A stretch of DNA of 60,393 nt from Deltaproteobacteria bacterium (GTDB taxonomy: Bacteria; Desulfobacterota; Desulfobacteria; Desulfobacterales; Desulfosarcinaceae): contig JAKALP010000034.1 in NCBI GenBank assembly GCA_021824175.1, positions 1-60,393 of the forward strand. Reading direction: 5' to 3'. The notes under the pieces are model-generated. The model worked only from the letters and a program-made list of their open reading frames with translations, had not been told where the DNA came from and made no database searches. Position numbers and translations under genes: made by a program. Below, piece after piece: positions 5,521 to 28,589 of this stretch; the first letter of the stretch is position 1; each line of letters opens with the position of its first letter.

Positions 5521-5533
5521 TTTAGCGGCTAAA
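5521..5533. promoter_or_regulatory. KorB operator (OB) at the traJ/traI junction
   Basis: The 13-bp sequence TTTAGCGGCTAAA is a perfect match to the RK2 KorB operator TTTAGC(G/C)GCTAAA. It supplies the TAG stop codon of traJ and lies one base upstream of the traI ATG, occupying the position of the ribosome-binding site. KorB binding here would act on the traJ-traI-traG transcript. Confidence 0.85.
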
Positions 5534-5906
5534 ATTCTTCGTTCGCCCCTCGGGGCTTGACCACACGGGTCATGATTTCGGCCATCTTGTCTTGGGTGGC
5601 CGTGATCTTGGATAGCACCGCCTCAAGATGGGCCTTGCCGATCAAGGCGGTCCGCTCGTCATTGGTCAACCAAAGCTTGATCAAGCCGCCGAGCCGGCCG
5701 AGGTCGCCATTGATTTTGGCGAGTTCGCGGACTTGTTCAAAGTCGATGACCCCTTTGAACGCATACCCCTGCCCTACTTCACGCAGATACCGGGCCACTT
5801 TCATCCCCGCTCTTTTGGCTTGGGCTTCGATGGCTTGCCTTTCCGAAGACAGGACCGGCACGTGAATTTGGTGGTGGCGTTTTTGTTCCTGGTCTTTTAT
5901 TTTCAT
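5529..5906 (-). CDS. traJ: TraJ-like oriT-recognition protein
   Basis: This 125-residue protein sits between oriT and traI, where RP4 traJ lies. TraJ binds the inverted repeat beside nic and recruits TraI. The basic N-terminus (KIKDQEQKRHHQIHVPV) runs into a ribbon-helix-helix/MobC-like region (SSERQAIEAQAKRAGMKVARYL), followed by a helical part ending MTRVVKPRGANEEF. I chose ATG 5906 over the upstream TTG 5954, because the latter would extend into conserved oriT sequence; AAGG lies about 8 nt upstream. The last codon and stop (F, TAG) are formed by a KorB operator. Confidence 0.88.
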   Translation of the reverse strand: MKIKDQEQKRHHQIHVPVLSSERQAIEAQAKRAGMKVARYLREVGQGYAFKGVIDFEQVRELAKINGDLGRLGGLIKLWLTNDERTALIGKAHLEAVLSKITATQDKMAEIMTRVVKPRGANEEF

Positions 5907-5914
5907 GCTCTGAA

Positions 5915-6160
5915 CCTTGTTGGCCGGCGGTAGCTGGCTGGCCTCGCAGAGCAAGATAGCCCGTTGAGCGCTTGACGCGAATAAGGGGAAGCGGGATTAG
6001 AAAAGCGATTCATCGATTAGCTAATTCCGCCTATCTTGCCCATGTTTTTGCATATAACGAAAGATGATTGCTTTAAACATTCCTTTCTTATTCCTTTCTT
6101 AAGTCTTTATTACGCCAGGATGAAAATGACAACAAAAAAAGAAATGTTTAAGAAAGGTTT
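5915..6160. other. oriT region, RP4-like, with P-type nic site at 6031-6040
   Basis: This is the intergenic region between divergent traJ and traK. CTATCTTGCC (6031-6040) fits the P-type nick consensus YATCYTG/Y, so cleavage is expected between 6038 and 6039. A 10-bp imperfect inverted repeat precedes it: GCGGGATTAG, about 5991-6000, and CTAATTCCGC at 6021-6030. This is the expected TraJ site. The stretch 5920-5986, including CCTCGCAGAGCA, CCCGTTGAG and GCGAATAAGG, is nearly the RP4 oriT sequence as I remember it. Confidence 0.88.
6082..6157. repeat. Repeated CCTTTCTTA motifs, candidate TraK-binding sites
   Basis: CCTTTCTTA occurs at 6082-6090 and 6093-6101, as direct copies 11 bp apart (about one helical turn). 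It occurs inverted as TAAGAAAGG at 6149-6157. All lie between nic and traK, where RP4 TraK binds and bends DNA. The assignment to TraK is inferred from position. A TTGACA at 6172-6177 may be a -35 box for traK, but no good -10 box follows. Confidence 0.45.
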
Positions 6161-6235
6161 GTGAAACTTTATTGACACAAATCTATATTTGTGAAAGGAA
6201 AATGAAAGTAATAATTAAACATATGAGAAAGGCTT

Positions 6236-6589
6236 ATGAAAAAGACCTTATCTGAACGAATTGCCGAACGAATCCGGGCCAAGGTTACAGAAGCCTCGGC
6301 CACAGAGCGAAACCTATCCTTGGTCCTGGCTCACCGAGAAGACATCCTCAAAGCCCTCGATGACGGCTGGTCCATCAAGACGGTTTGGGACCAGCTGCAC
6401 GAGGAGGGCAAAATAGATTTCAGCTACCAGACCTTTCGAAAGTACGTCGTCCGAATTGCAAAGGGGCGACTCCACAAGAAAGAGACCGATAGGGTCGAGA
6501 ACCGGATAGAAGAGACCGCGCCGGACCCGAACCGAACCATCAAGGGTTTTGCGTATGACCCAACACCAAAGAAAGAGGACCTGATATGA
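6236..6589 (+). CDS. traK: TraK-like oriT-binding accessory protein
   Basis: This 117-residue basic protein starts the rightward traK-traL-traM group. In RP4, TraK wraps the DNA between nic and traK and is needed for transfer. The central part (DDGWSIKTVWDQLHEEGK and YQTFRKYVVR, about 41-80) is the helix-turn-helix-like core shared with IncP TraK, the YQTF..YV pattern being characteristic. The C-terminus is Pro/Glu/Asp-rich. The ATG follows a weak AAAGG, and the stop overlaps the traL ATG (ATGA). Confidence 0.85.
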   Translation: MKKTLSERIAERIRAKVTEASATERNLSLVLAHREDILKALDDGWSIKTVWDQLHEEGKIDFSYQTFRKYVVRIAKGRLHKKETDRVENRIEETAPDPNRTIKGFAYDPTPKKEDLI

Positions 6590-7311
6590 AAAAGATCCAC
6601 ATTATTCTCCAGGGCAAAGGCGGCGTCGGCAAATCGTTGATTGCGGCCACGATAGCCCAGTACAAAGCGTCCAAAGGACAAGAAACCATTTGCATTGACA
6701 CCGATCCGGTCAATGCTACATTCGGGGGTTATAAGGCCCTCAACGTGCGTCGGCTGAATATTATTGAGGGGGACGAGATCAACCCGCGCAATTTCGATGC
6801 AATGGTTGAGGTTATAGCTCAAAGCAAGAATGATGTAATCATAGATAACGGTGCCAGTTCCTTTGTTCCAATGTCGCACTATCTAATCTCAAACCAGGTG
6901 CCGGCTCTGCTCGCTGAAATGGGATTTGATCTCATTATTCATACTGTCGTGACCGGCGGGCAGGCGCTGCTCGATACGATAAACGGCTTCGCTCATCTGA
7001 CCAGCCAGTTTCCCAAAGAGGCCACCTTCATTGTATGGCTCAACCCCTATTGGGGGCCCGTGGAACACGAGGGCAAAGGCTTTGAAGCCATGAAGGCCTA
7101 CCAAAGCAACAAATCGAAAGTGGCTGCGATTGTGAAAATACCCCAGCTTAAGGCCGAGACCTTCGGCCGGGATTTCAGTGACATGCTTCAATCCCGTCTC
7201 ACCTTTGACGAGGCTCTGGCAATGGACTCGTTAACAATCATGAGTCGGCAACGACTCAAGTTGGTTAAAACCGAAATGTTTGCGCAGATGGACAGCGCGG
7301 CGGTGCTTTAA
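6586..7311 (+). CDS. traL: TraL, ParA/MinD-superfamily transfer ATPase
   Basis: A 241-residue protein with a deviant Walker A motif (GKGGVGKS, residues 11-18) typical of ParA/MinD ATPases, and an N-terminus (KKIHIILQGKGGVGKSLIA) characteristic of IncP TraL. A second conserved stretch, VVTGGQALLDTINGF, is near residues 122-136. TraL helps IncP transfer efficiency, but its mechanism is not well defined. It is coupled to traK by a 4-nt overlap, and traM begins at the next base after its stop. It is one of three ParA-like ATPases in the window. Confidence 0.88.
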   Translation: MKKIHIILQGKGGVGKSLIAATIAQYKASKGQETICIDTDPVNATFGGYKALNVRRLNIIEGDEINPRNFDAMVEVIAQSKNDVIIDNGASSFVPMSHYLISNQVPALLAEMGFDLIIHTVVTGGQALLDTINGFAHLTSQFPKEATFIVWLNPYWGPVEHEGKGFEAMKAYQSNKSKVAAIVKIPQLKAETFGRDFSDMLQSRLTFDEALAMDSLTIMSRQRLKLVKTEMFAQMDSAAVL

Positions 7312-7734
7312 ATGGAAATGAACGAGCTCGTCAAAGAAGTGGCCGCAAAACACGGCATAGCGGTCGGCAAGAACGATCCCATAATGGTGCTCTGCACCAT
7401 TAATCAAATACTGCTTCAGAAAAACGCCGAAGAACAGGAAAAGCTGTTAGGTCATTTCCAGGAAGAAGTTGAGGCTATATCACACCGATGGAGCGAAGAC
7501 ACAAAGGCCAAGGCCGAAAAGATCATCAACGCGGCCTTGACTACGAGTCGCATGGAGATTCAAAAGGGGATACAAGAGGGCACAAAAAAAGCTGCCGATA
7601 CCATCACCAAAGAAGTGCAAAACTCGGCAAGTGCTCTGGCCAAACAAGCCGCATTGGTTGCTATGCTGAATGTGATTGGAGCAGGGGTGGCGCTCGTTGC
7701 TGCGGCTATTGTTGTTTGGGCAATAAAATTTTAA
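7312..7734 (+). CDS. traM: TraM-like conjugation protein, C-terminal membrane anchor
   Basis: A 140-residue protein with a long helical body and a C-terminal hydrophobic segment (about 115-138), so it is probably tail-anchored. The start VAAKHGIAVGKNDPIM and the stretch EEVEAISHRWSEDTKAKAEK recall IncP TraM. It follows traL with no gap; an ATG at 7318 is an alternative start. Its last codon and stop (F, TAA) fall in a one-mismatch KorB operator. Confidence 0.82.
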   Translation: MEMNELVKEVAAKHGIAVGKNDPIMVLCTINQILLQKNAEEQEKLLGHFQEEVEAISHRWSEDTKAKAEKIINAALTTSRMEIQKGIQEGTKKAADTITKEVQNSASALAKQAALVAMLNVIGAGVALVAAAIVVWAIKF

Positions 7735-7912
7735 CGGCTAAACTTGAAGAAAAACCACAGAATAAAATGGCCCCTATTTTATAAAGCCGGCTCAACGTCC
7801 ATACCTCTGTGGAACTCCATACCGATAACGCCCAAATTAAGCACGCCGCACTCAAGCCCAAGAAAAGCAACGATACACCGGCCCTTAAATAAGATATAAA
7901 TGCGCTGCACAC
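7706..7912 (-). CDS. Possible small two-pass membrane protein downstream of korB
   Basis: A 68-residue frame starting at GTG, with two hydrophobic segments (about 5-30 and 42-60) and a short basic tail. It lies downstream of korB in the same direction and overlaps the end of traM by 29 nt on the opposite strand. No clear ribosome-binding site is seen. RK2 also has small accessory genes in this area, but no homology is claimed. Confidence 0.35.
   Translation of the reverse strand: MCSAFISYLRAGVSLLFLGLSAACLIWALSVWSSTEVWTLSRLYKIGAILFCGFSSSLAVKILLPKQQ
7730..7742. promoter_or_regulatory. Degenerate KorB operator at the traM stop
   Basis: TTTAACGGCTAAA differs from the KorB consensus by one base in the left half-site. 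It contains the TAA stop of traM in the same register in which perfect operators supply the stops of traJ and the kleE-like gene. Confidence 0.5.
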
Positions 7913-8000: not shown

Positions 8001-8960
8001 CTAATCTCCAATCAGCGCTATCAGCCGCACAGTTGAAAAGTCGGCACCAAATTCATGCCCATCGTCAACATACTTAAAATATGCGCCCCCTTCTGTCGGC
8101 GGCCGGCGATTAAGCAAAAGGTGGGCTATTCTGCCGTCGTGCTCGACTTGAATAATCGGGCGCTTAATCTTCTCAGGGTCTGCTTTTTTAGAAGTGGTTT
8201 TTGGTTGGTCCGGATCTTTCGCAGTTTGGTTACCATTCTCATTGTTAATAGTAGGTTCGTTAACGACCACTCTATTATCGGAGGTTTCATTTGCAATAAA
8301 ATCACGCAAAGCTTTAACCGTTCCCCGCGAGATCTCCTGATCCTCATCGGCCAGCATCTCCTCAACCTCTGTGGGATTGGATTTGTAGGCCGTGTTCAGC
8401 TCGTTTAACACCGTCACATCGTTGGTACGGCCTGCGATAAACGCTTTGGCAATGGGTTCCGGCAAATTTAGCAAAGTCAGGTGTTGAGTTACATAAGCCG
8501 GAGACTTGCCAATTCGGCGGGCGATTTCGCCTTTCTTTAGACCCCTGGAAATCTCTCGACCGATAAAATCGGCGATCTCCCGGGCCGTCAGACTTTCCCT
8601 CTGGATGTTTTCAATCACCCTATCTGCGTCGCTATAATCATCGTCGATAAAAGCAGGGATGGTTGCTTTGCCCGCTATTTTCGATGCTCGAACTCGCCGC
8701 GCCCCATGATTAATGAGATAGCGGCCGTCTGCGCCGGCTCGAACCGAAATGGGCGTTTTGACCCCTCTTTCTCGAATAGAAGCCGCCATCTCCTCCAAGC
8801 TGTCTTTGGAAAAACCGGGGTTATCATTACTTCGAGGTTGAGAAGGGTCTTCGTCAACTATATCAAGCGATATTTCCAAAGGGGCCGACGTGTTCGGTTC
8901 TTTTAAAAGAGCGGATAAATCACCGATAGCCGCCAAACCAGCGAGTTGATTTTTTTTCAT
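8001..8960 (-). CDS. korB: KorB, ParB-family global repressor and partition protein
   Basis: In IncP plasmids KorB is both the centromere-binding ParB protein and a global repressor, and ParB-family members including KorB use CTP as sliding clamps. The 319 residues align by eye with RK2 KorB. ParB N-terminal boxes include DPSQPR (about 38-43) and the nucleotide-binding NHGARR box (about 84-89). A helix-turn-helix region follows (IARRIGKSPAYVTQHLTLL, about 140-160). An acidic/Asn-rich linker leads to an SH3-like C-terminal dimerisation domain (IIQVEHDGRIAHLLL to the end). The ATG overlaps the incC stop. Perfect KorB operators in the window support the function. Confidence 0.95.
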   Translation of the reverse strand: MKKNQLAGLAAIGDLSALLKEPNTSAPLEISLDIVDEDPSQPRSNDNPGFSKDSLEEMAASIRERGVKTPISVRAGADGRYLINHGARRVRASKIAGKATIPAFIDDDYSDADRVIENIQRESLTAREIADFIGREISRGLKKGEIARRIGKSPAYVTQHLTLLNLPEPIAKAFIAGRTNDVTVLNELNTAYKSNPTEVEEMLADEDQEISRGTVKALRDFIANETSDNRVVVNEPTINNENGNQTAKDPDQPKTTSKKADPEKIKRPIIQVEHDGRIAHLLLNRRPPTEGGAYFKYVDDGHEFGADFSTVRLIALIGD

Positions 8961-9721
8961 GACTGCATCTCCATCTGTTGATAAACGTATGACGCCAGCG
9001 CCCTAACCTCTTTCGTTGCTTTGCGTGCAGCAGTTTTTTTGATTTTCCAAACAGGGACGCCTGTTGCTAGCGCATCAGCAATACTGCTTCGCAGACCCAC
9101 TACGGTCGGTATCATAAGGTCTTTATACGCTGTGTGGAGCACTTTTAAATGCTGGCCGTGCCGAGGGTTTCGCGCATCGACCTTACTCGGCACCATTCCG
9201 AGAAATTTTAATTTGGGGTTTGCTTTCCGCATGTTCGAAATCGTAGTCACCATCAGCTTTATGCCTTGAATACTGTACACTTCGAGCTCAATGGGAGATA
9301 AAACGAAATCCGCCGCAAAAAGAGCTGCCGCCAGACCGACGCCGAGAGAGGGGGGAGTATCGATAAGACACATATCGAAACCGCAATCGCTTAAAGCTTC
9401 CAAATTGCTTTTGAAAATCGGCGCTACTTCGGTCAGCGTCTTTCTTTCGAGATCAGCAAGCAAGGCTCCAGAGCCTATTAACACAGGGTTTCCTGAGAGG
9501 CTTGCAAACCGTGATTTAGAGGCAGGTCCATTTTGAGAAAAAAGATCGCTTGCAAGACAATCGGCTTTAAAATTTTGAAGCGTATAGGAAGCATTCGCCT
9601 GAGTGTCGATGTCAATCACAACCACCCGAAGACCACGCTCCACAAAGTCAAACGCCAAATGAACTAGAGTTGAGGTCTTGCCGACCCCTCCTTTTTGGTT
9701 GGCTGTCACCAGCGTTTTCAT
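8957..9721 (-). CDS. incC: IncC, ParA-type partition ATPase
   Basis: A 254-residue partner of KorB that positions the element before cell division. It has the deviant Walker A motif KGGVGKTS (about residues 10-17) and an almost unchanged IncP signature (LGMVPSKVDARNPRH, then VGLRSSIADALA and VWKIKKTAARKA). I chose ATG 9721, which overlaps the korA stop (ATGA) and gives the short RK2 IncC2-like form. An upstream frame reaches 9757 but not the roughly 100-residue extension of RK2 IncC1, so only the short form is apparent. korA, incC and korB are tightly coupled by ATGA overlaps. Confidence 0.94.
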   Translation of the reverse strand: MKTLVTANQKGGVGKTSTLVHLAFDFVERGLRVVVIDIDTQANASYTLQNFKADCLASDLFSQNGPASKSRFASLSGNPVLIGSGALLADLERKTLTEVAPIFKSNLEALSDCGFDMCLIDTPPSLGVGLAAALFAADFVLSPIELEVYSIQGIKLMVTTISNMRKANPKLKFLGMVPSKVDARNPRHGQHLKVLHTAYKDLMIPTVVGLRSSIADALATGVPVWKIKKTAARKATKEVRALASYVYQQMEMQS

Positions 9722-10020
9722 TTCGTCCATCTCCCTTGTGCATATTTTTTTGCCCACTGTTTGACTGTGAAGGCCAGCCGCTTCGGAAGAATTGCCGTTA
9801 CCAACTCAAAGCCAGGAGGAATGCTGTTCGCTAAATGCGATTTATAGACGCGGGATACGGCTTGAGACACAGCCCCTTTGGTAATTCCCAAAGATTCAAC
9901 AAACTCGGATTGTTGCCGCCCCTCCACCAGCACTGCATGGGCTATGTCAAGCGTCTGCTGGCTTACATTGAGTCCAATTATAGCCTTTTGAAATTGTGCT
10001 TCAGATAGAGGTCTATTCAT
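9718..10020 (-). CDS. korA: KorA (TrfB) global repressor
   Basis: A 100-residue homologue of RK2 KorA, the small repressor that binds GTTTAGCTAAAC and cooperates with KorB. The N-terminus (LSEAQFQKAIIGLNVSQQT) and the helix-turn-helix (LGITKGAVSQAVSRVY, about 44-59) are nearly those of RK2 KorA. The C-terminal dimerisation part carries PPGFELVTAILP. There is no obvious ribosome-binding site: a KorB operator lies 7-19 nt upstream. Translation is probably coupled to the kleE-like gene, which ends inside that operator. Two perfect KorA operators in the window support the call. Confidence 0.95.
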   Translation of the reverse strand: MNRPLSEAQFQKAIIGLNVSQQTLDIAHAVLVEGRQQSEFVESLGITKGAVSQAVSRVYKSHLANSIPPGFELVTAILPKRLAFTVKQWAKKYAQGRWTK

Positions 10021-10026: not shown

Positions 10027-10039
10027 TTTAGCCGCTAAA
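10027..10039. promoter_or_regulatory. KorB operator (OB) before korA
   Basis: TTTAGCCGCTAAA is a perfect KorB operator. It contains the TAG stop of the upstream membrane gene and ends 6 nt before the korA ATG, replacing the expected ribosome-binding site. Confidence 0.88.
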
Positions 10040-10388
10040 ATTTCTGCGTGTCTTTAAAAACATTGGTTTTAGCAAAAAAAGTTAACACTACCAGCACGCC
10101 GAAATGCAGCAGGAAAGGAACGCCAGCCCGAGGACCTCGCATCTCCCAAAGATAAATCATCCGGCCAAACTGATAAACCACATCCAGGGCTATTACCCAC
10201 GAAGTGATTGGCCACAACAATACATGACTGGCCCATAAACAGCGGACACCATAGGTAATAAGAATTCTTACAATTCCTTGAGTGCGGGGCCTTTTGTTCG
10301 AAACAACCGGCCGTTGTGGATTGGCCGGTTTAATCTCGGCCTTAGGACTCAATGAACTATTCGGAAACCTAATCACTTTGGTAACCAT
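10035..10388 (-). CDS. KleE-like membrane protein in the control operon
   Basis: A 117-residue protein from ATG 10388, preceded by AAAGGA at a good distance. It begins TKVIRFP and a Pro/Lys-rich cytoplasmic stretch, followed by two or three hydrophobic segments (about 40-65, 66-82 and 90-107). RK2 KleE, of the kle genes controlled by KorA and KorB, has the same plan with a similar V-R-x-P start, and lies upstream of korA. The resemblance is in layout and short motifs, so the homology is probable only. It is the first gene after the KorA-controlled promoter. Confidence 0.6.
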   Translation of the reverse strand: MVTKVIRFPNSSLSPKAEIKPANPQRPVVSNKRPRTQGIVRILITYGVRCLWASHVLLWPITSWVIALDVVYQFGRMIYLWEMRGPRAGVPFLLHFGVLVVLTFFAKTNVFKDTQKF

Positions 10389-10413: not shown

Positions 10414-10442
10414 AGTTTAGCTAAACAACGACTCTTTGTCAA
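10414..10442 (-). promoter_or_regulatory. KorA-regulated promoter of the kleE-like/korA/incC/korB operon
   Basis: Read leftward: TTGACA (10437-10442), a 17-bp spacer, then TAAACT (10414-10419) as the -10 box. A perfect 12-bp KorA operator GTTTAGCTAAAC occupies 10415-10426 and covers most of the -10 box, the arrangement known for KorA-repressed RK2 promoters. The same architecture recurs at 28561-28589. Confidence 0.88.
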
Positions 10443-10456
10443 TACCCTGCTTCCAT

Positions 10457-11647
10457 TTATTCTTCTGCGATGAAAACTTTTCTCATCGCAGCAATGAATG
10501 TTGGTGAACCGATCTTTTCAGGTCGTTTTACAAATGAGGGGATTTTATTGATACATTTTTTATATCGTTCGCTATTTGGCTCTTGTAACATTTGCTCGAA
10601 TTCAAAATCCAATTGGGCGGAAATCGCCTCCTCCCGTAATCTCTTTAACTCCTCAGCCTGGCGTTTTATCTCTTCAATCCGCGCCCTTTCCCTTTCGATC
10701 TCTTTTTCGTGATGGGATTTGTAGTTGGCTGGTTTTGGGTAAGTTCCGGTACGTTCCACAATTCTGAAAAACCAATTAAAGACATCTTTGATTGCATCGA
10801 TTTTCTCGCGATTATTTTCCACCATATCAAACTGGCAATAACAAAGCGCCTGGATAACACTTTTTGTTGTGATGCTAAATTGCTCGCCCCATCTAGCAAC
10901 TTGCTTTGGGGTCAATCCTTTTTGACGCCAATAACCGAGTTCTGGATGATGTTCGAGTTGGTTTTGTATTTCGAGTAAAGTAGTAGTTTCTTTTTTAAAA
11001 CTACTACTAATAGTGGGTTCTGCTCCGATCCTGATATGATCCTGCTCCGATCCTGATATGATCCTGATATTTTTACTCAGTTTTAATTGTTTTTTGAGAT
11101 CGATTTTATATTCAAAACTTTTCTGGCAGGTATCATATTTCAACGTAAGCACACCGCTGTTTTCAAGCTTCGATACAGCCTTGCGTATAGTAATATAGGG
11201 CACTGACAGGGCACGTTCGATCTCGGGCTTATTAAAGACACCATTTTCCCCTCTCTCCTTGAGCCATAAATAAATCACGGTTTGGCTTTTTGACAGGCTT
11301 ATGGATGGTGCTCCTTTGGTGATATTTTTTGGGGCGGGCGTCGGGGATTTTAGATGGTGCTCCTTTGGTGATATTTTATCCTGTTCCATATCTGATAAGG
11401 AGCTGCTATTTTCCTGCTCTTTATCTGATATTTTATTGATCCCATCCTGATCTTGTTCCTGTCCCGTTATGATCCTGCTCCGATCCTGATATGATCCTGA
11501 TATGATCCTGATATGATCATAATCCCTTTCAGAGAATGCTGGAATCGGTTCGTCGGATTTAGTCACACTGTCAACGGCGCTCTTAGCGTCTTTCATCAGG
11601 CCGGCCATGAAAGAATCGACGAGGGTCTTTGACTTTGGCTTTGGCAT
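10457..11647 (-). CDS. Winged-helix DNA-binding protein with repeats inside its gene; candidate replication or partition protein
   Basis: A 396-residue protein 4 nt downstream of parA, so probably co-transcribed. Residues 1-120 are polar and low complexity. About 120-180 looks like a winged helix (SKSQTVIYLWLKERG, then IRKAVSKLENSGVL). About 225-300 is a second conserved domain (YWRQKGLTPKQVARWGEQF, VFNWFFRIVERTGTYPKP) of a kind I associate with plasmid/phage replication proteins. About 305-345 is a charged coiled coil. Two arrays of an 11-bp repeat, also present upstream of parA, lie inside the gene. It could be the initiator (TrfA is otherwise missing) or the ParB-like partner of the adjacent ParA. 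I cannot decide between these. Confidence 0.75.
   Translation of the reverse strand: MPKPKSKTLVDSFMAGLMKDAKSAVDSVTKSDEPIPAFSERDYDHIRIISGSYQDRSRIITGQEQDQDGINKISDKEQENSSSLSDMEQDKISPKEHHLKSPTPAPKNITKGAPSISLSKSQTVIYLWLKERGENGVFNKPEIERALSVPYITIRKAVSKLENSGVLTLKYDTCQKSFEYKIDLKKQLKLSKNIRIISGSEQDHIRIGAEPTISSSFKKETTTLLEIQNQLEHHPELGYWRQKGLTPKQVARWGEQFSITTKSVIQALCYCQFDMVENNREKIDAIKDVFNWFFRIVERTGTYPKPANYKSHHEKEIERERARIEEIKRQAEELKRLREEAISAQLDFEFEQMLQEPNSERYKKCINKIPSFVKRPEKIGSPTFIAAMRKVFIAEE
11019..11073 (-). repeat. 11-bp repeat array, intragenic copy B
   Basis: On the coding strand of the winged-helix gene, about five tandem 11-bp units alternate between ATCATATCAGG and ATCGGAGCAGG, with degenerate end units. 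Internal unit junctions create GATC. The units encode IRIISGSEQDHIRIG; because 11 is not a multiple of 3, successive units are read in different frames. Confidence 0.85.
11304..11377 (-). repeat. 25-bp direct repeat inside the same gene, read in two frames
   Basis: A 25-bp sequence occurs at 11304-11328 and 11353-11377, 49 bp apart. Because 49 is not a multiple of 3, one copy encodes KISPKEHH and the other NITKGAPS. The DNA is conserved while the protein is not, so it is either a recent duplication or a DNA-level site. Confidence 0.75.
11463..11517 (-). repeat. 11-bp repeat array, intragenic copy A
   Basis: Five tandem units on the coding strand: ATCATATCAGG three times, ATCGGAGCAGG, then ATCATAACGGG. 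The unit types and their order match the array upstream of parA. They encode HIRIISGSYQDRSRIITG (about residues 45-62). GATC recurs every 11 bp, near one helical turn. Confidence 0.88.
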
Positions 11648-11651
11648 TGCC

Positions 11652-21061: not shown

Positions 21062-21063
21062 CC

Positions 21064-21804: not shown

Positions 21805-22683
21805 ATGAAGAAAGCAGCAATAGTTTGGGTGTTGATGATGGCGGTCGCCCTCGGCAACGCACAAGCGGCGGGGCCATCGATTGATGACAAGTACTTTTCT
21901 CCCAACCCACAGCTTACCAAAGAGGAGCGCGACGCTATCAAAAAGGCCATGGCTTACGAACAAAGTGACTACAGAATTAAGCCGGTCACGGGAGAAGATG
22001 GCTCGGTGAGGTATCTATTTGGGCAGTCGATGCCCACCATTGTTTGTTCTCCGTTGCAGGTGACCGACATTCAATTGCAGCCCGGAGAGTCATTCAAAGG
22101 CATACATATCGGCGACAAGGCCCGATGGAGTGTTGAACCGGCCGTTACGGGGATAGGTGGGGCAGAGACTCTGCATATTATTATCAAACCTTTTGACGTG
22201 GGGCTGGAAACCAGCCTTATTTTTTTAACCGACCGCAGAGTTTACCAGTTCAAGCTTAAATCCCATCGCAGCGAGTGGATGCCGAAGGTCAGCTTCGTCT
22301 ATCCGGACGAAATATTGGAAAAATGGTCTTCGGTTCAAAAGAGCAGTCGTGCGGTTCGGCAGGAGAAGACCACAAAAGAGGGAATGTACTTAGGAGATCT
22401 GGACTTTGACTACGATGTCGAAGGTTCAGCCCCATGGAAACCCGTCAGGGTTTACAACGACGGCCAAAAGACAGTGATCGAAATGCCCAACGAGATGACG
22501 CAGACTGAAGCTCCGGCCCTTCTGGTCATGCGCAATCCCGATGCTGAAGACGACCTGGCGGTAGTCAATTATCGAATCCACGACAAGCGCTATATTGTGG
22601 ATTCTTTATTCCCGAGCGCGATTCTGGTGGCCGGCGTGGGCGGGTCCCAGGAGCGCGTCACCATCACCAGGAGGAAAAAATGA
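21805..22683 (+). CDS. trbG: TrbG, VirB9-type outer-membrane complex protein
   Basis: A 292-residue protein with a signal peptide (cleavage near ANAQAAG, about residue 21) and the VirB9/TrbG fold: CSPLQVTDIQLQPGE (about 73-87), LIFLTDRRVYQFKL (about 137-150), and a C-terminal domain with ALLVMRNPDAEDDLAVVNYR and VTITRRKK. It forms the core channel with TrbH and TrbI. GGGGG precedes the ATG. The stop overlaps the trbH start (ATGA). Confidence 0.93.
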   Translation: MKKAAIVWVLMMAVALGNAQAAGPSIDDKYFSPNPQLTKEERDAIKKAMAYEQSDYRIKPVTGEDGSVRYLFGQSMPTIVCSPLQVTDIQLQPGESFKGIHIGDKARWSVEPAVTGIGGAETLHIIIKPFDVGLETSLIFLTDRRVYQFKLKSHRSEWMPKVSFVYPDEILEKWSSVQKSSRAVRQEKTTKEGMYLGDLDFDYDVEGSAPWKPVRVYNDGQKTVIEMPNEMTQTEAPALLVMRNPDAEDDLAVVNYRIHDKRYIVDSLFPSAILVAGVGGSQERVTITRRKK

Positions 22684-23099
22684 GCCGAGCCATTTTTTTC
22701 TTCTTTGCAGCGCTGTGCATAGGCTGCGCAACAACTCAGCCGTATGGCGCCTTTGTTGTGTCCTCCGACAAAGACGCATCGATAATGGCCGAGGATGCCG
22801 TCGGGCAGTTATGCGCCGTGTACCCTCCGGCCAAAACCGCGTTGAAGATCGAAAATAAAGTTGAAGACCCGACCGGAAAAGCCCTCATCCGGGAGCTGAG
22901 GCATAAGGGCTTTGAGGTTTACCAAGGCGTAGCGCCGGAAGATAAGGCCCCCCTGCCAACGTATTATGTCCTCGATCAATTGGGCAAAGACACATGGCGG
23001 CTGACCATAGGGATAGGCAAAAGACAGCTTTCACGGCCCTACCATATCGCTCAGGGAGCCCTTGTCGTAGCGGCCGGCAGTTGGACCTATAAGGAGTGA
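22680..23099 (+). CDS. trbH: TrbH, VirB7-like outer-membrane lipoprotein
   Basis: A 139-residue lipoprotein. The short signal ends ALCIGCATTQ, with Cys16 the predicted lipidated residue. The rest is a small periplasmic domain. Its position between trbG and trbI, coupled by ATGA to trbG, matches RP4. It probably anchors the core complex in the outer membrane. Confidence 0.88.
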   Translation: MSRAIFFFFAALCIGCATTQPYGAFVVSSDKDASIMAEDAVGQLCAVYPPAKTALKIENKVEDPTGKALIRELRHKGFEVYQGVAPEDKAPLPTYYVLDQLGKDTWRLTIGIGKRQLSRPYHIAQGALVVAAGSWTYKE

Positions 23100-23101
23100 A
23101 C

Positions 23102-24520
23102 ATGAAAAAGCAACGGACGATGAACCCGGAAGAATCGCCCGAAACCGCGCCGATCGGCTCGGGGGTGCGGCGGATAAACAACGTTCCCCTATATATCATA
23201 GGAGCAATCGTCGCGAGTTTCATGATTGTCATGGTTCTTGTTGCTGCCGACAGGAGTCAAAAGAGCAGCGCCGCGAAGCCGAAGGAGGAAGTAAAAGCGG
23301 CTAGCAACACCACGGCCGCGTTTGCCAAGGAAATTACGGAAGGAAAGAAAGCGGGAATTGTCGAGCCCGCCAAGCCCCCGACAATCCCTGTGAAGAAGAC
23401 ACAGCAGCAGGCACAGCAAACTGAAGAGCAGACCGAGCCCGCAGGCGCTGAAGACTTGCAGATTAAAGAAGCCACCGAGCATTTAAGGCGGCGCCAAGAG
23501 GAGTTGAAGAATCAACCGGCCCCGGTCCCCGTGGACAACGAGGCCGAAATGATTCGGACGAGCAAGTTACAGATGTTCGAAAACGCCGTAAAGTCCGGCA
23601 CGGCGGTGCAAGCCCAGCCTCAATCCAATTCAGCGGGAGCGGGGACTGCAACCCCAAGAACCCGCGAGGAGATGATTGACCGGATCGCTTCACTGCGGCG
23701 GCAGTCCACCGAGGCCGGGGGAGACATCACTGCGCAATACCAGCAACGGCTCACCCAAATCAAAGGAATGGGCTTGGGCGGTACGGAAGGCATAGGCGGC
23801 GGTGGGGGGATAGCACTTGCCTCGGCCGCCACCGCGCAACCCTCTGGAGGCAATGGGTACGGGCAATTCGACAATCGGGGCGGCGGTGACCGTTGGCGCC
23901 TCGACTCCAAGCCGGAGCCCCCGCGATCACGCTATGAACTGAGGGCGGGAGCGGTCATTCCGGCAATTCTCATTCGTGGCATTAACTCCGAGCTGCCGGG
24001 CCAAATCACCGCCCAAGTTTCTCAAAACGTTTACGATACGGCCACGGGCAAATATCTGCTGATCCCACAAGGCACCATGGCGGTGGGGGCCTACTCCAGC
24101 GAAGTTATCTACGGCCAAGCCCGCGTATTGGTGGCGTGGCAGCGGCTCACCTTCCCCGATGGCAAAGCGATGGACATCGGGGCCATGCCTGGGGCCGACG
24201 AGGCCGGATATTCGGGGTTCGGCGACCTCGTGAACAATCACTACCTGCGGATATTCGGCTCAGCACTCTTGATGTCGGGGATTGTTGCGGGCGTCAGTTT
24301 AAGCCAGGACCATCAAGGCGTAGCCACCACAGACACCCAACGAGCCAGTGACGCAATGAGCGAGGCCCTGGGCCAGCAGCTTGGCCAAGTTGCGGCGCAG
24401 ATGATCTCCAAAAATCTCAATATTGCTCCAACGCTGGAGATTCGCCCAGGCTACAGGCTCAACATTGCCGTCACAAAAGATCTCACCATGCCGGCGCCAT
24501 ATGCGGCCTTTGATTACTAA
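23102..24520 (+). CDS. trbI: TrbI, VirB10-type channel protein
   Basis: A 472-residue protein spanning the envelope. A short cytoplasmic N-terminus leads to one membrane segment (about 25-46), then a long Ala/Gln/Pro/Glu-rich periplasmic linker (about 50-260), then the conserved VirB10 beta domain (RYELRAGAVIPAILIRGINS, about 276-295; then LLIPQGTMAVGAYSS). A Gly-rich patch is near 220-240. I chose ATG 23102, two codons after GTG 23096, because AAGGAG ends 5 nt before it. Confidence 0.93.
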   Translation: MKKQRTMNPEESPETAPIGSGVRRINNVPLYIIGAIVASFMIVMVLVAADRSQKSSAAKPKEEVKAASNTTAAFAKEITEGKKAGIVEPAKPPTIPVKKTQQQAQQTEEQTEPAGAEDLQIKEATEHLRRRQEELKNQPAPVPVDNEAEMIRTSKLQMFENAVKSGTAVQAQPQSNSAGAGTATPRTREEMIDRIASLRRQSTEAGGDITAQYQQRLTQIKGMGLGGTEGIGGGGGIALASAATAQPSGGNGYGQFDNRGGGDRWRLDSKPEPPRSRYELRAGAVIPAILIRGINSELPGQITAQVSQNVYDTATGKYLLIPQGTMAVGAYSSEVIYGQARVLVAWQRLTFPDGKAMDIGAMPGADEAGYSGFGDLVNNHYLRIFGSALLMSGIVAGVSLSQDHQGVATTDTQRASDAMSEALGQQLGQVAAQMISKNLNIAPTLEIRPGYRLNIAVTKDLTMPAPYAAFDY

Positions 24521-24547
24521 CAATAGGGCAGGGGAGGGCAGAGCCGA

Positions 24548-25294
24548 ATGAAACGAATAGTGCTCTACACGGTGCTGTGGCTGGCGCTCATGGCGGGACC
24601 GGCATCGGCGGGAATACCAACCATCGATGGCGCCAATTTAGTCCAAAGCATTATGGGTGTGTTGGAGACCATCAACCAAACCCAACAGATGATCCAGCAG
24701 TACTCGACGCAACTGCGACAATATGAAAATCAACTCCAAAACACGATGGGACCCTCGACCTACATTTGGAGCAACGCCCAGGGGTCCATCAACGGGCTGC
24801 TCGGCGCGATAAACACGATAGAGTATTATCGGGGTCAGCTCGGGACGCTCGACCGATACCTTAATAATTTCCAAGATGTCGGCCATTATCAAAGCCTATC
24901 CAGTCTCACGAGCCGGAATTGTACGCCGGCGCAGACCGCTCAATTGACCGACTCAGAACGTTTTACTTCCGAGGCCCAAAAAAGGTCCAACGACGCCTCC
25001 ATGCAGGGCATCAATCAGCAACAAGAGTCATTAAGGCAGGACGCTCAAACTCTATCGCAGCTTCAAGCCAACGCCCAAACCGCCACGGGGCAAATGCAAG
25101 CGATACAGTACGGCAATCAGTTTGCAGGCAATCAAGCAAGCCAACTTATGCAGATACGGGGTTTGCTAATCGCGGAGCAAAACGCGATGGTAACGCGACA
25201 ACAGGCGTTGGCCGATCAGGAAGCAAAAGAAGAGGCTAGCGCGGAACAGCTCCGAAAGGGGGATTTTGTATCCAGTCCGCGCCAGGGCTGGTAG
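24548..25294 (+). CDS. trbJ: TrbJ, VirB5-type pilus-associated protein
   Basis: A 248-residue secreted protein with a signal peptide (cleavage near SAG, about residue 22) and long Gln/Asn-rich helices, as in VirB5/TrbJ proteins that sit at the pilus tip. It ends KGDFVSSPRQGW, a tail almost identical to the end of the next gene, trbK. A GGGCAGGGGAGGGC stretch lies before the ATG. Confidence 0.88.
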   Translation: MKRIVLYTVLWLALMAGPASAGIPTIDGANLVQSIMGVLETINQTQQMIQQYSTQLRQYENQLQNTMGPSTYIWSNAQGSINGLLGAINTIEYYRGQLGTLDRYLNNFQDVGHYQSLSSLTSRNCTPAQTAQLTDSERFTSEAQKRSNDASMQGINQQQESLRQDAQTLSQLQANAQTATGQMQAIQYGNQFAGNQASQLMQIRGLLIAEQNAMVTRQQALADQEAKEEASAEQLRKGDFVSSPRQGW

Positions 25295-25333: not shown

Positions 25334-25492
25334 ATGAAGAGGGCGGTATGTATTATCGTACTTATTGTCACTTTGTGTGGGTTTTGCGCCTGCGGCGAGA
25401 GCAAAAAAGAGAAGGCTGAAAGACAACAAGGAGAAGCATCAAAAGAACTTCGAAAAGGAGAATTCAAGCCAAGCCCGCGTCAGGGTTGGTAA
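25334..25492 (+). CDS. trbK: TrbK-like small lipoprotein (entry exclusion)
   Basis: A 52-residue lipoprotein. Hydrophobic residues 4-17 are followed by CGFCACGES, so Cys20 is the probable lipidated residue although the lipobox is imperfect. A Lys/Glu-rich stretch ends KGEFKPSPRQGW. AAAGGAG precedes the ATG. It lies between trbJ and trbL, exactly where RP4 trbK encodes the entry-exclusion lipoprotein that stops transfer between cells carrying the same plasmid. The tail is shared with TrbJ. Function is inferred from position and lipoprotein form. Confidence 0.82.
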   Translation: MKRAVCIIVLIVTLCGFCACGESKKEKAERQQGEASKELRKGEFKPSPRQGW

Positions 25493-25502
25493 AGGGGCCG
25501 CC

Positions 25503-27263
25503 ATGGGGAAACGTTGGGTAGTAGCAGCCTTGGTAATCATTTTCTGTTGTCTTGCTATAAGCCAAGCCCACGCCGATATTAATAATTCAGGTCTGCTCGA
25601 TAATGTCATTCGACGTTATTCCAACGCAGCCAGTTCTTGGGTGGGCGTCATCAGAGACGCAGCGAGCCGTTTGTTCTGGACCCTCGTGCTAATCTCCATG
25701 GTCTGGACTTTTGGAATGATGGCCTTAAGGCAAGCAGGCCTACAAGAGTTTTTTGCCGAATTCTTGAAGTTTACAATCACTACAGGTTTTTTCTGGTGGC
25801 TGCTTACGAATGGACCCAACTTCGCTGATTCAATAATCCGATCTCTGAGAATTTTGGCCGGCAGTGCAACCGGTCTTGGCGACAATATCTATCCATCTGA
25901 AGTAGTAGACATCGGATTTAATATCTTTTTCTCCGTTCTGAAACGGACCTCGGCCTGGAAACCTGTGGATAGCACAGCCCTGATACTAATTGCGGTAGTT
26001 GTTTTGGTCATCCTTGCCTTGGTCGCCGTTAATATGCTGCTGCTGATTGTTTCTTCGTGGATACTCACATATGCGGGAATATTTTTTTTAGGGTTTGGTG
26101 GGTCTAAATGGACTTCCGATATGGCCATTGGGTACTACCGCAGTGTTTTATCTATTGCCGCGCAGCTACTCGTTATGGGGCTTCTCATAGGCATTGGGCA
26201 GGGGTTTATCAACGATTACTACCAGCAAATGGCCGAAGGCTTAAGATATGGTGAAATGGGTGTTTTACTAGTTGCAAGCATTGTGCTGTTGGCGCTGGTC
26301 AGCAAAGTCCCACCCATGATTGGCCAATTAGCCTTCGGAGGGGGCGGCGGTGGCGGTGTAGGAACTTTTGGAGCCGGTGCCGCATTAGGAGCAGCCGGCG
26401 CCCTGATGTCAGGCGCAGCCATGGCGGGTGCAATGGCGAAGGCAGCGGCCACCGGCATGGCGGGAGGGGCGCAAGCCTTAATAGCAGCATATAAGCAAGC
26501 CGGGCAAAATGTATCGGAGGGATCGGACATCTTATCCGGCTTTGCCGTTCAAAGCGGGGACGCCTCCCCGGCCGGCAGTGCATCTGAAGCCGCTGGCAGC
26601 GAAGCAGGCTTAGCCAAAGAGGGCGGCCAAGCATCAGGTGGAGGCGCGTTCAGTGCCTCCACAACCAGCGGGGCCGGCGACAATAGTTCTTCCCAGGCCG
26701 CCAGCAATACCTCACCCGGCGACGGTGCCTCCGAAATCGCAGGCGGCGAAACACCCGCAAGCCCTCCTGGCATCCAAGCCAGCGAAGGGGGTGGTGCGAC
26801 CTCATCCAGTCCTCCCGGCATCCAAGCCGGCGAAGCAGGAGGCATATCCAGTGCTACCGCAACCAACGGGGCCGGCGACCCAGGCCGTTCCGCAAATAAC
26901 GGTAAGAATTCTTCCACCTCAGGAAAAACACGCATGCCAACAAAAAGGACCCGTATTGCAGCAGACACAGCGGCGAACCTCATTAAGGGAGCATATGATG
27001 TCGCAAAAGGTCATATCGCTAATACTACAACGGGCGGGAAAATAGCAGCAGCAATTAAAAAAAGGGCAGGGGACGCAAATCAAGCGAAGGAAGCCCAAAC
27101 AAATCAAGAAAATCAAATATCAAAATTACCGGAGTTTAACGGCGACAGCTTGCAGGCGGACCCCGAGCAGGAGATAGCGGCCTTCGTATCCCACCCCTCG
27201 ACGGGAGCGTTTGCGGAGGACGCCATAACCCAACAAGACACCCATACAAGGAGGAGCGGATGA
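25503..27263 (+). CDS. trbL: TrbL, VirB6-type polytopic channel protein
   Basis: A 586-residue protein with a signal-like segment and about six more membrane segments over residues 1-285 (one is LVMGLLIGIGQGFIN). A Gly stretch (GGGGGGG) and an Ala/Gly/Ser-rich hydrophilic C-terminal region follow (about 285-586). That region contains a tandem repeat in which SPPGIQASEGGGA and SPPGIQAGEAGGI are two copies. I chose ATG 25503; the frame extends upstream through trbK. The stop overlaps trbM (ATGA). Confidence 0.92.
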   Translation: MGKRWVVAALVIIFCCLAISQAHADINNSGLLDNVIRRYSNAASSWVGVIRDAASRLFWTLVLISMVWTFGMMALRQAGLQEFFAEFLKFTITTGFFWWLLTNGPNFADSIIRSLRILAGSATGLGDNIYPSEVVDIGFNIFFSVLKRTSAWKPVDSTALILIAVVVLVILALVAVNMLLLIVSSWILTYAGIFFLGFGGSKWTSDMAIGYYRSVLSIAAQLLVMGLLIGIGQGFINDYYQQMAEGLRYGEMGVLLVASIVLLALVSKVPPMIGQLAFGGGGGGGVGTFGAGAALGAAGALMSGAAMAGAMAKAAATGMAGGAQALIAAYKQAGQNVSEGSDILSGFAVQSGDASPAGSASEAAGSEAGLAKEGGQASGGGAFSASTTSGAGDNSSSQAASNTSPGDGASEIAGGETPASPPGIQASEGGGATSSSPPGIQAGEAGGISSATATNGAGDPGRSANNGKNSSTSGKTRMPTKRTRIAADTAANLIKGAYDVAKGHIANTTTGGKIAAAIKKRAGDANQAKEAQTNQENQISKLPEFNGDSLQADPEQEIAAFVSHPSTGAFAEDAITQQDTHTRRSG

Positions 27264-27853
27264 GAAGATGGTTGTTTACGACACTGGTTGTCGCGGTAGT
27301 GGGCGCCGCAATGACGGCGGCGGTTATCAATGCCAAAGCAGATAGCGGCATATTGGAGGGAGATACGCGGTTATCGTGTGAAGCCCTTTTATGTTTAGCA
27401 TCAGGAAAGAAACCCACTGAATGCGGACCGTCGCTGAATCGGTACTTTTCAATTAATTGCGGTAAGTTCATTGACACCATAAGGGAGCGCAGGAAATTCC
27501 TTGATCTGTGCCCCGCGGCGAACCAAAGCCCCGAAATGGCCGGACTTGCCGACGCCCTGGCAAACGGGGCAGGTCGCTGCGACGTGGTATCGCTCAACAA
27601 ACTGTATATACCGGGTTCAGGCGATTTAGTTTTTTATATCTCGAACCAGATACCAAGTTATTGCGCATACCTCAGCAACCCATACACCTCATATGACGAC
27701 ACCCGGCCGGTTTATGTCGGCCTCCCCGAAAGAGGTGGCCATTGGGTCGAGGCAAAGGACTATGATCAAGAGCTGCGGGCATATAACGAGCGGATTAAGG
27801 CCGAAGATGAAGCTAAAGAAAAGGCGCTCAGAGAGCTTCTCGGCACGCTTTAG
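27260..27853 (+). CDS. trbM: TrbM, secreted conjugation protein
   Basis: A 197-residue protein with a signal peptide (about 1-28) and the TrbM signature: CEALLCLASGKKPTECGPSL (about 40-59), then YFSINCGKF and RRKFLDLCPAA. Conserved cysteines suggest disulfides in the periplasm. The C-terminus is a charged helix. It overlaps trbL by 4 nt and trbP by about 47 nt. Confidence 0.92.
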   Translation: MRRWLFTTLVVAVVGAAMTAAVINAKADSGILEGDTRLSCEALLCLASGKKPTECGPSLNRYFSINCGKFIDTIRERRKFLDLCPAANQSPEMAGLADALANGAGRCDVVSLNKLYIPGSGDLVFYISNQIPSYCAYLSNPYTSYDDTRPVYVGLPERGGHWVEAKDYDQELRAYNERIKAEDEAKEKALRELLGTL

Positions 27854-28535
27854 AAGTATCAGCGTTCCCCCCGCGTTGCGGCTATCCGGCGCAACGGAGG
27901 CGCTAAAATGGATCGGACTGATAATGATGACAGGCGACCATGTCAATAAGTATCTATGCGGCGAAGCATATCGGACGCTGTTTAATGCGGGCCGGATCGC
28001 CATGCCGCTGTTTGTGACGGTGTTTGCCTACCACTTGTCGAAGCATAAAGTCACGGCACGCCTTTTGGTGCGGCTGTTGGTGGCCGGCGTGCTCGCATCT
28101 CCAGCATTCATGGCCCTTAATAAGTTGCTTGGCGGATGGTGGCCGCTAAACATTATGTTCTTGTTCTTTTGTCTTGCGGCCATCACCGCGTTGAACGAGC
28201 AGAAGCGCTACCTTTCGGCGGTGCTGGTCGGCATTCTCGGTGGAGCAATTGTTGAATTCTTTTGGCCTGCGCTCTACTACGGGGTTGCGGCGACGCGCTA
28301 CTTCAAACGGCCCTCTTGTTTGACCGCTATCGTCGCGGTGGCGCTGCTTGCGGTGTGCAGGATAGTAAATGGCTGTTCCTGGGCTCTGATGGCACTCCCC
28401 ATCATCGTGGGTCCCTCTCTTTTAGCGAAGCGGTATCCGATTTCGATTCCACGCGCCAAATGGTTCTATTACGCCTACTATCCTGCACACCTTTCCATGA
28501 TTTGGGCCATTCAGGCCATTCAAAAGTTTAGCTGA
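27807..28535 (+). CDS. trbP: TrbP, TraX-family membrane protein
   Basis: A 242-residue polytopic protein of the TraX family; in the F plasmid TraX acetylates pilin, and RP4 TrbP belongs to the same family. Signatures are LKWIGLIMMTGDHVNKY (about 34-50), AGRIAMPLFVTVFAYHL and KWFYYAYYPAHLSMIW near the C-terminus, with about eight membrane segments. I start it at ATG 27807 (AAGG 6 nt upstream), within the end of trbM. A TTG near 27875, just before the conserved part, is an alternative. No trbN (lytic transglycosylase) or trbO homologue is seen before it. Confidence 0.85.
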   Translation: MKLKKRRSESFSARFRSISVPPALRLSGATEALKWIGLIMMTGDHVNKYLCGEAYRTLFNAGRIAMPLFVTVFAYHLSKHKVTARLLVRLLVAGVLASPAFMALNKLLGGWWPLNIMFLFFCLAAITALNEQKRYLSAVLVGILGGAIVEFFWPALYYGVAATRYFKRPSCLTAIVAVALLAVCRIVNGCSWALMALPIIVGPSLLAKRYPISIPRAKWFYYAYYPAHLSMIWAIQAIQKFS

Positions 28536-28541
28536 ATAAAT

Positions 28542-28554
28542 TTTAGCCGCTAAA
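28542..28554. promoter_or_regulatory. KorB operator (OB) between trbP and the OmpA-lipoprotein operon
   Basis: TTTAGCCGCTAAA, a perfect KorB operator 6 nt after the trbP stop and 22 bp upstream of a KorA operator. Adjacent OB and OA sites are the arrangement in which RK2 KorA and KorB repress cooperatively. Confidence 0.9.
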
Positions 28555-28560
28555 AAATGT

Positions 28561-28589
28561 TTGACGGCAATTAAAGGTTTAGCTAAACT
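28561..28589 (+). promoter_or_regulatory. KorA/KorB-regulated promoter of the OmpA-traF-traE-traC operon
   Basis: TTGACG (28561-28566), a 17-bp spacer and TAAACT (28584-28589) form the promoter. The perfect KorA operator GTTTAGCTAAAC (28577-28588) covers most of the -10 box, exactly as at 10414-10442. Transcription would run into the lipoprotein gene at 28638. Confidence 0.88.

Follow-up and report, generated by a model that had tools for sequence, protein, structure and literature searches.

Can the repressors of an IncP plasmid stay in use when the replicon that they normally regulate is replaced? This question is raised by contig JAKALP010000034.1 (assembly GCA_021824175.1), 60,393 nucleotides from a deltaproteobacterium of the order Desulfobacterales. 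It encodes KorA and KorB, the repressors known from the IncP plasmid RK2, together with copies of their operators. The window that we analysed is the whole contig; no overlap was found between its two ends, and an open reading frame (ORF) of 3360 amino acids is truncated at the right one. We believe, with a probability of about 0.75, that the window is most of a Desulfobacterales conjugative plasmid, in which a divergent IncP-1-like backbone is combined with a Desulfobacterales-type iteron replicon and KorA and KorB act on a reduced, rewired set of targets.

The operators are placed as follows.

10415-10426: KorA operator (OA), GTTTAGCTAAAC, perfect, over the -10 box (TAAACT) of the promoter that precedes kleE-korA-incC-korB
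28577-28588: OA, perfect, covering the -10 box of the promoter TTGACG-17-TAAACT (28561-28589)
5521-5533: KorB operator (OB), TTTAGCSGCTAAA, perfect, at the traJ-traI junction
7730-7742: OB with one mismatch, at the traM stop codon, downstream of korB
10027-10039: OB, perfect, in the 14-bp kleE-korA gap and extending into the kleE stop codon
28542-28554: OB, perfect, 6 bp upstream of the -35 box
30121-30133: OB with one mismatch, inside traF at offset 272

An earlier note on this DNA, made from its letters alone, had reported the two perfect OA on TAAACT boxes with TTGACA or TTGACG at 17 bp, the three perfect OB and the one-mismatch OB at 7730, and had taken them for the RK2 operators in an element encoding KorA and KorB. 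Our motif scan found every one of these, and added the OB inside traF; the words are real, both proteins are encoded (see below) and they keep the specificity residues that we compared. A chance origin of the perfect operators is rejected, as two perfect OA were reached in 0 of 100 shuffles of the window, and five OB with at most one mismatch, against 0.14 expected, also in 0 of 100. In the genome as a whole (6,074,036 bases), 10415 and 28577 are the only perfect OA, and 5521, 10027 and 28542 the only perfect OB. Because the OA word read backwards, used as a control, occurs three times in the genome, the genome count of OA is unimpressive by itself; what stands out is the placement of both copies within one 60-kb contig, each on a -10 box. 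Similarly, OB words with one mismatch occur at six further places on other contigs, and the backward OB control, with one mismatch allowed, at 36 in the genome, so that the imperfect sites at 7730 and 30121, taken alone, carry less weight. These two share one 13-base word, read from opposite strands, and a similar half-site variant is found in MEALZ_p (L059:13644). When up to two mismatches are allowed, the window holds seven OB, with 1.6 expected. A site of this kind at 16590, upstream of trbB, was left out of the OB count, and may correspond, in decayed form, to the KorB site that precedes trbB in RP4; another, at 36038, was set aside as possible chance. The same was done with a third OA-like word, at 28526, which has two mismatches, since at least three such matches arose in 17 of 100 shuffles.

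The two OA mark promoters of different construction. The first (TTGACA-17-TAAACT, 10442-10414, minus strand) is followed by a ribosome-binding-like sequence and by the kleE start codon at 10388, and OA is its only adjoining operator, the nearest OB being 375 bp downstream, at 10027. In most of 11 references, the korA promoter, with both OB and OA, directly precedes korA; the OA there is perfect in six, has one or two mismatches in four and is unrecognisable in MEALZ_p. In the window, the gap between kleE and korA holds OB only, and OA is found before kleE. The second promoter (TTGACG-17-TAAACT, 28561-28589, plus strand) precedes an ompA-like gene and is the one place where an OB (28542) adjoins an OA promoter: OB ends 6 bp before the -35 box and OA lies on the -10 box, giving the complete OB and OA arrangement at a sigma-70 promoter. 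A distance of 6 bp falls in the ‘proximal’ class of 4–10 bp (PMC11790492). The gap between OB and OA is 22 bp, compared with 19–22 bp in 17 perfect reference pairs; one further perfect pair, at kfrA in pAKD4, is of another type with a gap of 4 bp. No such module was seen in the 40–120 bp searched before ompA in six references (OA with 4–6 mismatches, OB with 5–7), and its exact form, OB-22-OA, is in no viral contig searched. In pHP-42, the Methylophaga plasmid and pP9014, an OB lies just behind ompA.

On the plus strand, the second promoter is followed by ompA, the gene of a 169-residue protein, traF, traE, the gene of a TraC-like protein, an ORF of 111 residues, and the genes of a 2392-residue protein, an ORF6N protein and an HU protein. 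The main genes of this block are these.

28617-29291, plus strand: ompA-like gene in the place of IncP-1 upf30.5; PF00691
29336-29845, plus strand: 169-residue protein of the ompA-traF block; no Pfam or PHROG match
29849-30382, plus strand: traF, relocated; PF10502; 53–59% identical to 13 references
30395-32476, plus strand: traE topoisomerase, relocated; PF01131; 69% identical to pHP-42 TraE, 42% to the RP4 type
32679-36194, plus strand: TraC-like protein with ArdC N-terminal, metallopeptidase and Toprim/primase parts
36514-43692, plus strand: methyltransferase-SNF2 helicase protein of 2392 residues with a C-terminal KfrB domain

In the references whose tra region was read, traF lies behind traG, with traQ between them in pQKH54, whereas in the window traG has no adjacent traF and the traF-traE-traC block stands behind ompA. 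Because the ompA-like protein gave no tblastn match to pHP-42 OmpA or pYKCG107 Upf30.5, we equate its gene with upf30.5 by place only. The 2392-residue protein, whose methyltransferase part is Eco57I-type, may be an establishment or anti-restriction factor.

The repressors are encoded, with their partners, in the order kleE-korA-incC-korB on the minus strand.

10035-10388, minus strand: kleE, ATG at 10388; PF17394 (expect value, E, 1.7e-19, with a longer ORF); tblastn matches to pHP-42 and RP4 KleE
9718-10020, minus strand: korA; PF16509 (E 6.6e-28); RK2 KorA structure (E 1.2e-24)
8957-9757, minus strand: incC, ParA partner of KorB; PF13614; 56–68% identical to IncC of 13 references
8001-8960, minus strand: korB; PF06613 (E 1.4e-16) and PF08535; RK2 KorB structure (E 2.7e-85)

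KorA is 47% identical to its RP4 counterpart, KorB 58% and TraI 53%; against 15 IncP-type references KorA is 47–61% and KorB 52–60% identical, and the compared proteins as a whole 42–77%. By the family models, KorB has the C-terminal barrel. KorA retains Q53, which contacts three OA bases (PMC4889941). Its residue 48 is K, as in 12 of 16 other rows of the alignment (R in RP4, pXAM48, Xhyd and RA3), and residue 84 is F, as in 14 of 16. KorB retains R117, N146, T211, R240 and F249, the last being Y in six of 15 IncP-type rows. T211 and R240 are residues that read the operator. In RK2, R117, N146 and F249 are needed for binding of cytidine triphosphate (CTP), clamp closing and contact with KorA (PMC11790492), and F at KorA position 84 works as well as Y, the Y84F protein retaining co-operation with KorB (PMC2680271). 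The window proteins hence contain the CTP-binding and clamp residues and the F249–KorA Y/F84 contact. The KorB C-terminal domain was found in one of 389 genomes of the class searched, namely this genome, and a KORA-family match in 14 of 395 genomes of the phylum, 13 of them weak, with the curated cut-off passed by the window protein only. KorB scans of genome and viral contigs returned distant ParB proteins only (five loci at 38–42%, one at 31%); a KorB protein search gave a match in 87 of 97 relatives, this genome included, where the other places listed are ParB-like and at most 45% identical.

Some of the KorB sites have kept their positions. The 13-bp OB at the traJ-traI junction has no mismatch in the window and in all 14 reference plasmids, with differing flanking bases, and is invariant although TraI is only 43–54% identical to the references. 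Inside traF, the references have an OB at offset 266–278, perfect in 13 of 14 and with one mismatch in Xhyd; the window OB, at offset 272, is at the matching codon, and its single mismatch turns an alanine into a valine. A perfect OB lies upstream of korA in 10 of the 11 references examined, the exception being pAKD25, for which a 95-bp stretch was searched. In contrast, the OB found near the trbJ start in 11 of 11 IncP-type plasmids scanned has gone from the window, where the best match has six mismatches. The total with at most one mismatch is five here, compared with 11–12 in pHP-42, pYKCG107, RP4, the Methylophaga plasmid and Xhyd, all scanned whole.

We then asked how the backbone is related to known plasmids. 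Its best plasmid DNA match is about 400 bp of trbB at about 80% identity, in eight plasmid records, which, with proteins at 42–77%, rules out recent contamination by a laboratory IncP plasmid. Among the matches listed, TrbE reaches 74.3% identity, with none above 80% in the 5000 best records. TraI is 48.6–53.1% identical in the best 40 of 4494 matches, with one record in the 60–80% band, and KorB 55.6–59.3% in the best 40 of 3056, with two records in that band. In a tree of six proteins from 15 plasmids, the window branches among the plasmids that remain once the two outermost are set apart, and its branch is long (0.51); the best tree already has it with pHP-42, the Methylophaga plasmid and pP9014, at a support of 26/8. 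The KorB tree places it beside the same three (92/89) and the TrbE tree beside pXAM48 and pKPC2 (85/68); the two placements disagree and neither is well supported. The approximately unbiased (AU) test rejected the grouping of the window with RP4 and Xhyd (p 1.5e-5), with R751 and pYS1 (p 0.026) and with pYKCG107 and pMCBF6 (p 0.0028), and did not reject its grouping with pQKH54 (p 0.09) or a group of all other IncP-1 rows that excludes the window (p 0.32). The tree held pAKD4 and pAKD25 without an AU test, and no plasmid knowingly of the kappa, omicron, lambda, mu, rho or eta subgroups. The subgroup letter of pQKH54, gamma, is that of its record title, and letters other than gamma, iota and theta are those we presume for the reference plasmids. 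Iota and theta (pHP-42) follow our reading of a table in PMC9499019. Judged by these comparisons, the element appears as a long-branched lineage, IncP-1-like rather than a member of IncP-1. Two other sources of its control region were considered and rejected. The IncU plasmid RA3 has A, Q, T and D where the window has KorA Q53 and KorB T211, R240 and F249, differs also at KorA Y84, and holds neither operator, even when one mismatch is allowed. A PromA origin does not fit the IncP-type Trb and TraI proteins of the window, in place of VirB genes with a MobC/relaxase pair; in the 40 of 47 kb covered of pMRAD02 (PromA, with VirB genes), neither OB nor OA occurs perfectly or with a single mismatch.

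The replicon is of another kind.

10457-11647, minus strand: putative replication initiator (Rep), 396 residues
11020-11070: first array of iteron-like 11-bp repeats, within rep
11444-11518: second array of iteron-like 11-bp repeats, within rep
11652-12440, minus strand: second ParA (ParA2), paired with rep; PF13614
12696-12750: third iteron-like array, upstream of parA2 and in the opposite orientation to the two in rep

Replicon and cargo together (10443-16944) have a guanine plus cytosine content of 42%, against 54–55% in the tra and trb genes; the cargo encodes an FAA-hydrolase-like protein, a methyltransferase and a protein of 354 residues without a Pfam family. The 396-residue protein matches no Pfam, NCBIfam or PHROG family and no credible solved relative (one match, E 3). 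It has matches in two Desulfosarcina plasmids among 72,556 plasmid records, and in 14 of 291 genomes of the order, its own included. A search of the genome for a 16S gene found none, and the host is placed through one of these Rep relatives, L075, which is assigned to the same order and agrees at 100% identity, across 3981 bases, with a stretch of the Desulfosarcina sp. BuS5 plasmid; the host order is therefore the one that contains this strain (Desulfobacterales in its record). At least one short tandem repeat is present in 15 of 17 loci with Rep relatives (some from the same plasmid) and none in L086 and L087, counts made without a random control; the repeats were placed inside the rep gene for L047 and L095 only. 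In L095, a contig of the same genus, a ParA stands next to a Rep of 25% identity, and the identical unit GATCCTGATAT occurs twice inside the rep-like ORF; a stray copy of it lies at 47313 in the window. The ParA-Rep pair is found in L047 and L048 as well as L095. No OA or OB precedes rep or parA2 (4–8 mismatches at best), and scans of viral contigs with Rep and TrbE gave no match. We consider the 396-residue protein to be probably an iteron-type initiator whose origin lies within its own gene.

Several IncP backbone genes were not found. In a tblastn search of the contig with 51 reference proteins, KlcA and KfrC being represented by pHP-42 alone, TrfA, Ssb, KorC, KlcA, KleA, KfrA, KfrC, TrbN and TrbK had no match; for TrfA of RP4 and pHP-42 this holds at E 0.01, on a contig that may be incomplete. 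The IncP-1 KfrB proteins had none either, a PromA KfrB matching the end of the 2392-residue protein, and the sole matches of TrbA and a KlcB-like protein hit the C-terminal part of korA. Genes shared by IncP-1 plasmids that are present are TraE, F, G, I, J, K, L and M, a TraC-like protein, IncC, KorA and KorB with OA and OB, and most Trb proteins; TrfA was not found on the contig, nor were others used for IncP-1 phylogeny, among them trbN, korC and klcA. This gene list was partly taken from PMC9499019, and TraD and TrbO were left out of the queries. Because TrfA and other shared genes are missing, strict IncP-1 membership fails on this contig, and because TrfA, TrbA, KorC and others were not found the circuit is reduced. 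The earlier note had called the circuit intact, which we cannot uphold: the search of the contig did not find TrbA, KorC, TrfA/Ssb or genes of the kfr and klc kinds, the OB near trbJ has gone, and there are two OA, whereas 7 KorA and 12 KorB operators are reported for RP4 (PMC7314908). Its rearranged transfer region is confirmed by the position of traF-traE-traC. A different replication module is also seen; a different partition module is right only in part, as IncC-KorB is kept and the second ParA comes with the new Rep. The new IncP-related lineage that it proposed agrees with the rejection of alpha, beta and iota plus pMCBF6 groupings and with the lack of a close plasmid record; grouping with the gamma plasmid pQKH54 was not rejected.

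From these sites, genes, residues and conserved positions we infer binding, repression, sliding, operon extent, partition and Rep function in the following way. The Desulfobacterales-type iteron replicon would stand in for trfA and oriV, so that replication would be set by Rep and its iterons and not by KorA and KorB. KorA on the -10 box at 10415 would autorepress kleE-korA-incC-korB, and KorB, loaded at 10027, would slide as a CTP-loaded clamp to the promoter 375 bp off, where KorA would stall it. At 28542-28589, KorB bound beside the -35 box would act together with KorA, bound over the -10 box, to repress ompA and the block behind it, with traF, the topoisomerase, the ArdC-primase and the methyltransferase-helicase. 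KorB and IncC would also partition the plasmid from the remaining KorB sites. In RP4, leading-region operons under KorA and KorB fire transiently in new transconjugants (PMC7314908), and by analogy the relocated block may give a similar burst in a new cell. We tentatively suggest, at odds somewhat short of even, that the IncP circuit has been naturally rewired in a Desulfobacterales lineage, so that KorA and KorB have given up control of replication but repress korAB, by way of the KorB site 375 bp inside the operon, and directly gate a relocated block of pilus-maturation, topoisomerase and anti-restriction genes that would fire on entry until repressor builds up.

Several observations count against this scheme. 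If the OB at 10027 serves the promoter before kleE, it must act from downstream; the KorB sites described for RK2 lie upstream (PMC11790492). A weak promoter-like word (9 of 12) overlaps this OB, so korA might have a second start, and read-through from parA2-rep into kleE-korA is possible. Two residues depart at the surface where the repressors meet: KorA has R in place of H81, a change shared with a single reference (Xhyd), and KorB has D in place of E248, unlike every other IncP-type row. The traF OB also encodes protein (LAAK), so part of its conservation comes from constraint on the protein. The contig may be incomplete, and may stem from a circular plasmid or an integrated element; trfA could then be elsewhere. 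Finally, the lost trbJ site and the mismatches at traF and 7730 could mean decay. Taken to its end, this would make the element a relic, an IncP-like backbone captured by a native Desulfobacterales plasmid, with sites that are leftovers under weak or no selection. The low OB number (five, against 11–12 in five IncP-type plasmids), the trbJ loss, the one-base change shared by the traF and 7730 sites and the failure to find TrbA, KorC and KfrA on the contig would all be expected of it. Nevertheless, three OB and two OA are perfect while the proteins have diverged to 42–77% identity, the key residues of KorA and KorB are kept and the 28542-28589 module has full promoter geometry, and we regard a relic as quite improbable.

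Somewhat less improbable, but still unlikely, is that the KorB sites serve mainly in partition, as ParB centromeres spread over the plasmid, and that KorA alone represses the two promoters. Four of five OB are at gene ends, at a gene junction or inside a gene rather than at a strong promoter, and incC-korB is kept. Against this reading stand the OB at 28542, which lies 6 bp from the -35 box of a promoter whose -10 box carries OA, as at RK2 korAp, and the retained contact residues F249 and F84. A third alternative is that the 396-residue protein is a ParB-like partner of ParA2, with the true replication gene off the contig. Its gene stands next to a ParA gene in the window and in three other loci compared, no family names it, and repeats near parA could be centromeres. 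Arrays inside the gene, in L047 and L095 as well, fit in-gene origins, and IncC-KorB is already a partition pair; none of the ORFs scanned belongs to a recognised rep family, and TrfA and the rep proteins of MEALZ_p, pP9014 and pMRAD02 have no match on the contig. We therefore hold a ParB-like role to be doubtful, though the least unlikely of these alternatives, and retain the reading of a rewired IncP-1-like plasmid with an iteron replicon.

With RK2/RP4 (IncP-1 alpha) the window shares the OA and OB words, the korAp-type promoter geometry, the traJ-traI and traF KorB sites, and the key residues of KorA and KorB, up to K48 and F84 here. It differs in that trfA, trbA, korC, kfrA and klcA were not found, in that korA follows an OA promoter before kleE, and in that a KorA/KorB promoter precedes ompA-traF-traE-primase. 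The kleE-korA-incC-korB order with a KorB site before korA is shared with pHP-42 and the Methylophaga plasmid (TrbE 71%), which differ in having their own trfA, a regulator in the trbA place, kfr genes, traF behind traG, and GTATAGCTATAC as the korA operator. A change of replication gene has precedents among such plasmids: MEALZ_p (Methylotuvimicrobium) and pP9014 (Photobacterium) have IncP-like kor/trb backbones with another replication gene and, in the stretches covered, no annotated trfA. Their rep proteins have no match in the window, they have a regulator in the trbA place, and in pP9014 traF follows traG. The Desulfosarcina plasmids BuS5 unnamed1 and Do28_1, with the congeneric L095, share the ParA and Rep-like pair and short tandem repeats in or near rep, the repeat unit being common to L095; unlike the window, they show no KorA, KorB, TraI or TrbE match in the stretches covered, and those of BuS5 and Do28_1 contain F-type or Dot-type transfer genes.

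No reference examined has this host order, a KorA/KorB promoter before a moved tra block or a korA operon promoter with an internal KorB site, and among the papers listed by searches of one openly licensed library we recognised no report of native IncP-like plasmids in Desulfobacterota. An IncP-like backbone with KorA/KorB control is now seen in the order of Desulfosarcina sp. BuS5. It indicates which parts of the RK2 circuit survive replicon exchange, including the kor operon and the KorB site at the traJ-traI junction. As the operator words are unchanged despite divergence of the repressors, they should serve well as probes in the search for hidden relatives of IncP. The downstream KorB site offers a natural setting for the reach and direction of action of the KorB clamp, and if our reading is true, the rewired operon is a ready-made test of KorB sliding to a KorA-marked promoter from downstream.

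The remaining transfer genes are arranged as follows.

1450-3339, minus strand: traG coupling protein; PRK13880 TraG, 1082 bits; 66–71% identical to 14 references
3336-5519, minus strand: traI relaxase (MOBP); NF041893, E 2.6e-158; 43–54% identical to 14 references
5529-5954, minus strand: traJ, NikA-like relaxosome protein; PF21983; 69% identical to pHP-42 TraJ
5955-6235: origin-of-transfer (oriT) region in the traJ-traK gap, with nic-like CCTATCTTGCCC
6236-6589, plus strand: traK; PF17273; matches pHP-42 TraK
6586-7311, plus strand: traL; PRK13886, 449 bits
7312-7734, plus strand: traM; PF11657, PRK13895
16945-17904, plus strand: trbB; PF00437; some 400 bp of its DNA are about 80% identical to IncP-1 trbB
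17904-25294, plus strand: trbC, D, E, F, G, H, I and J
25365-28535, plus strand: trbL, trbM and trbP/traX

The traJ-traK gap contains the nic-like word TATC(C/T)TGCCC in the window and in 7 of 12 references; four more have CATC(C/T)TGCCC. A gene for a Cro/CI-type regulator (16032-16403) lies divergently before trbB, at about the place of IncP-1 TrbA, and may have taken over control of the trb operon.

Farther along, the ORF6N-domain protein (43689-44195) matches the PADLOC candidate defence family PDC-S05 (E 4e-60). Two genes on the contig encode HU-type DNA-binding proteins (44265-44540 and 48633-48917). A nuclease gene (SNase) and a ParD-ParE pair lie close together at 46088-48418, like the RP4 par region; no resolvase was recognised in the ORFs scanned. 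The ORF that runs off the contig end (50312-60393) has at least 3360 codons and is of surface type, with CARDB, FlgD-like Ig and squalene-cyclase-like stretches. At the other end, bases 1-105 have an 80% identical copy on contig C5, and bases 41-104 recur at 80% on C32 of the same genome; the contig start is possibly a repeat or mobile element.

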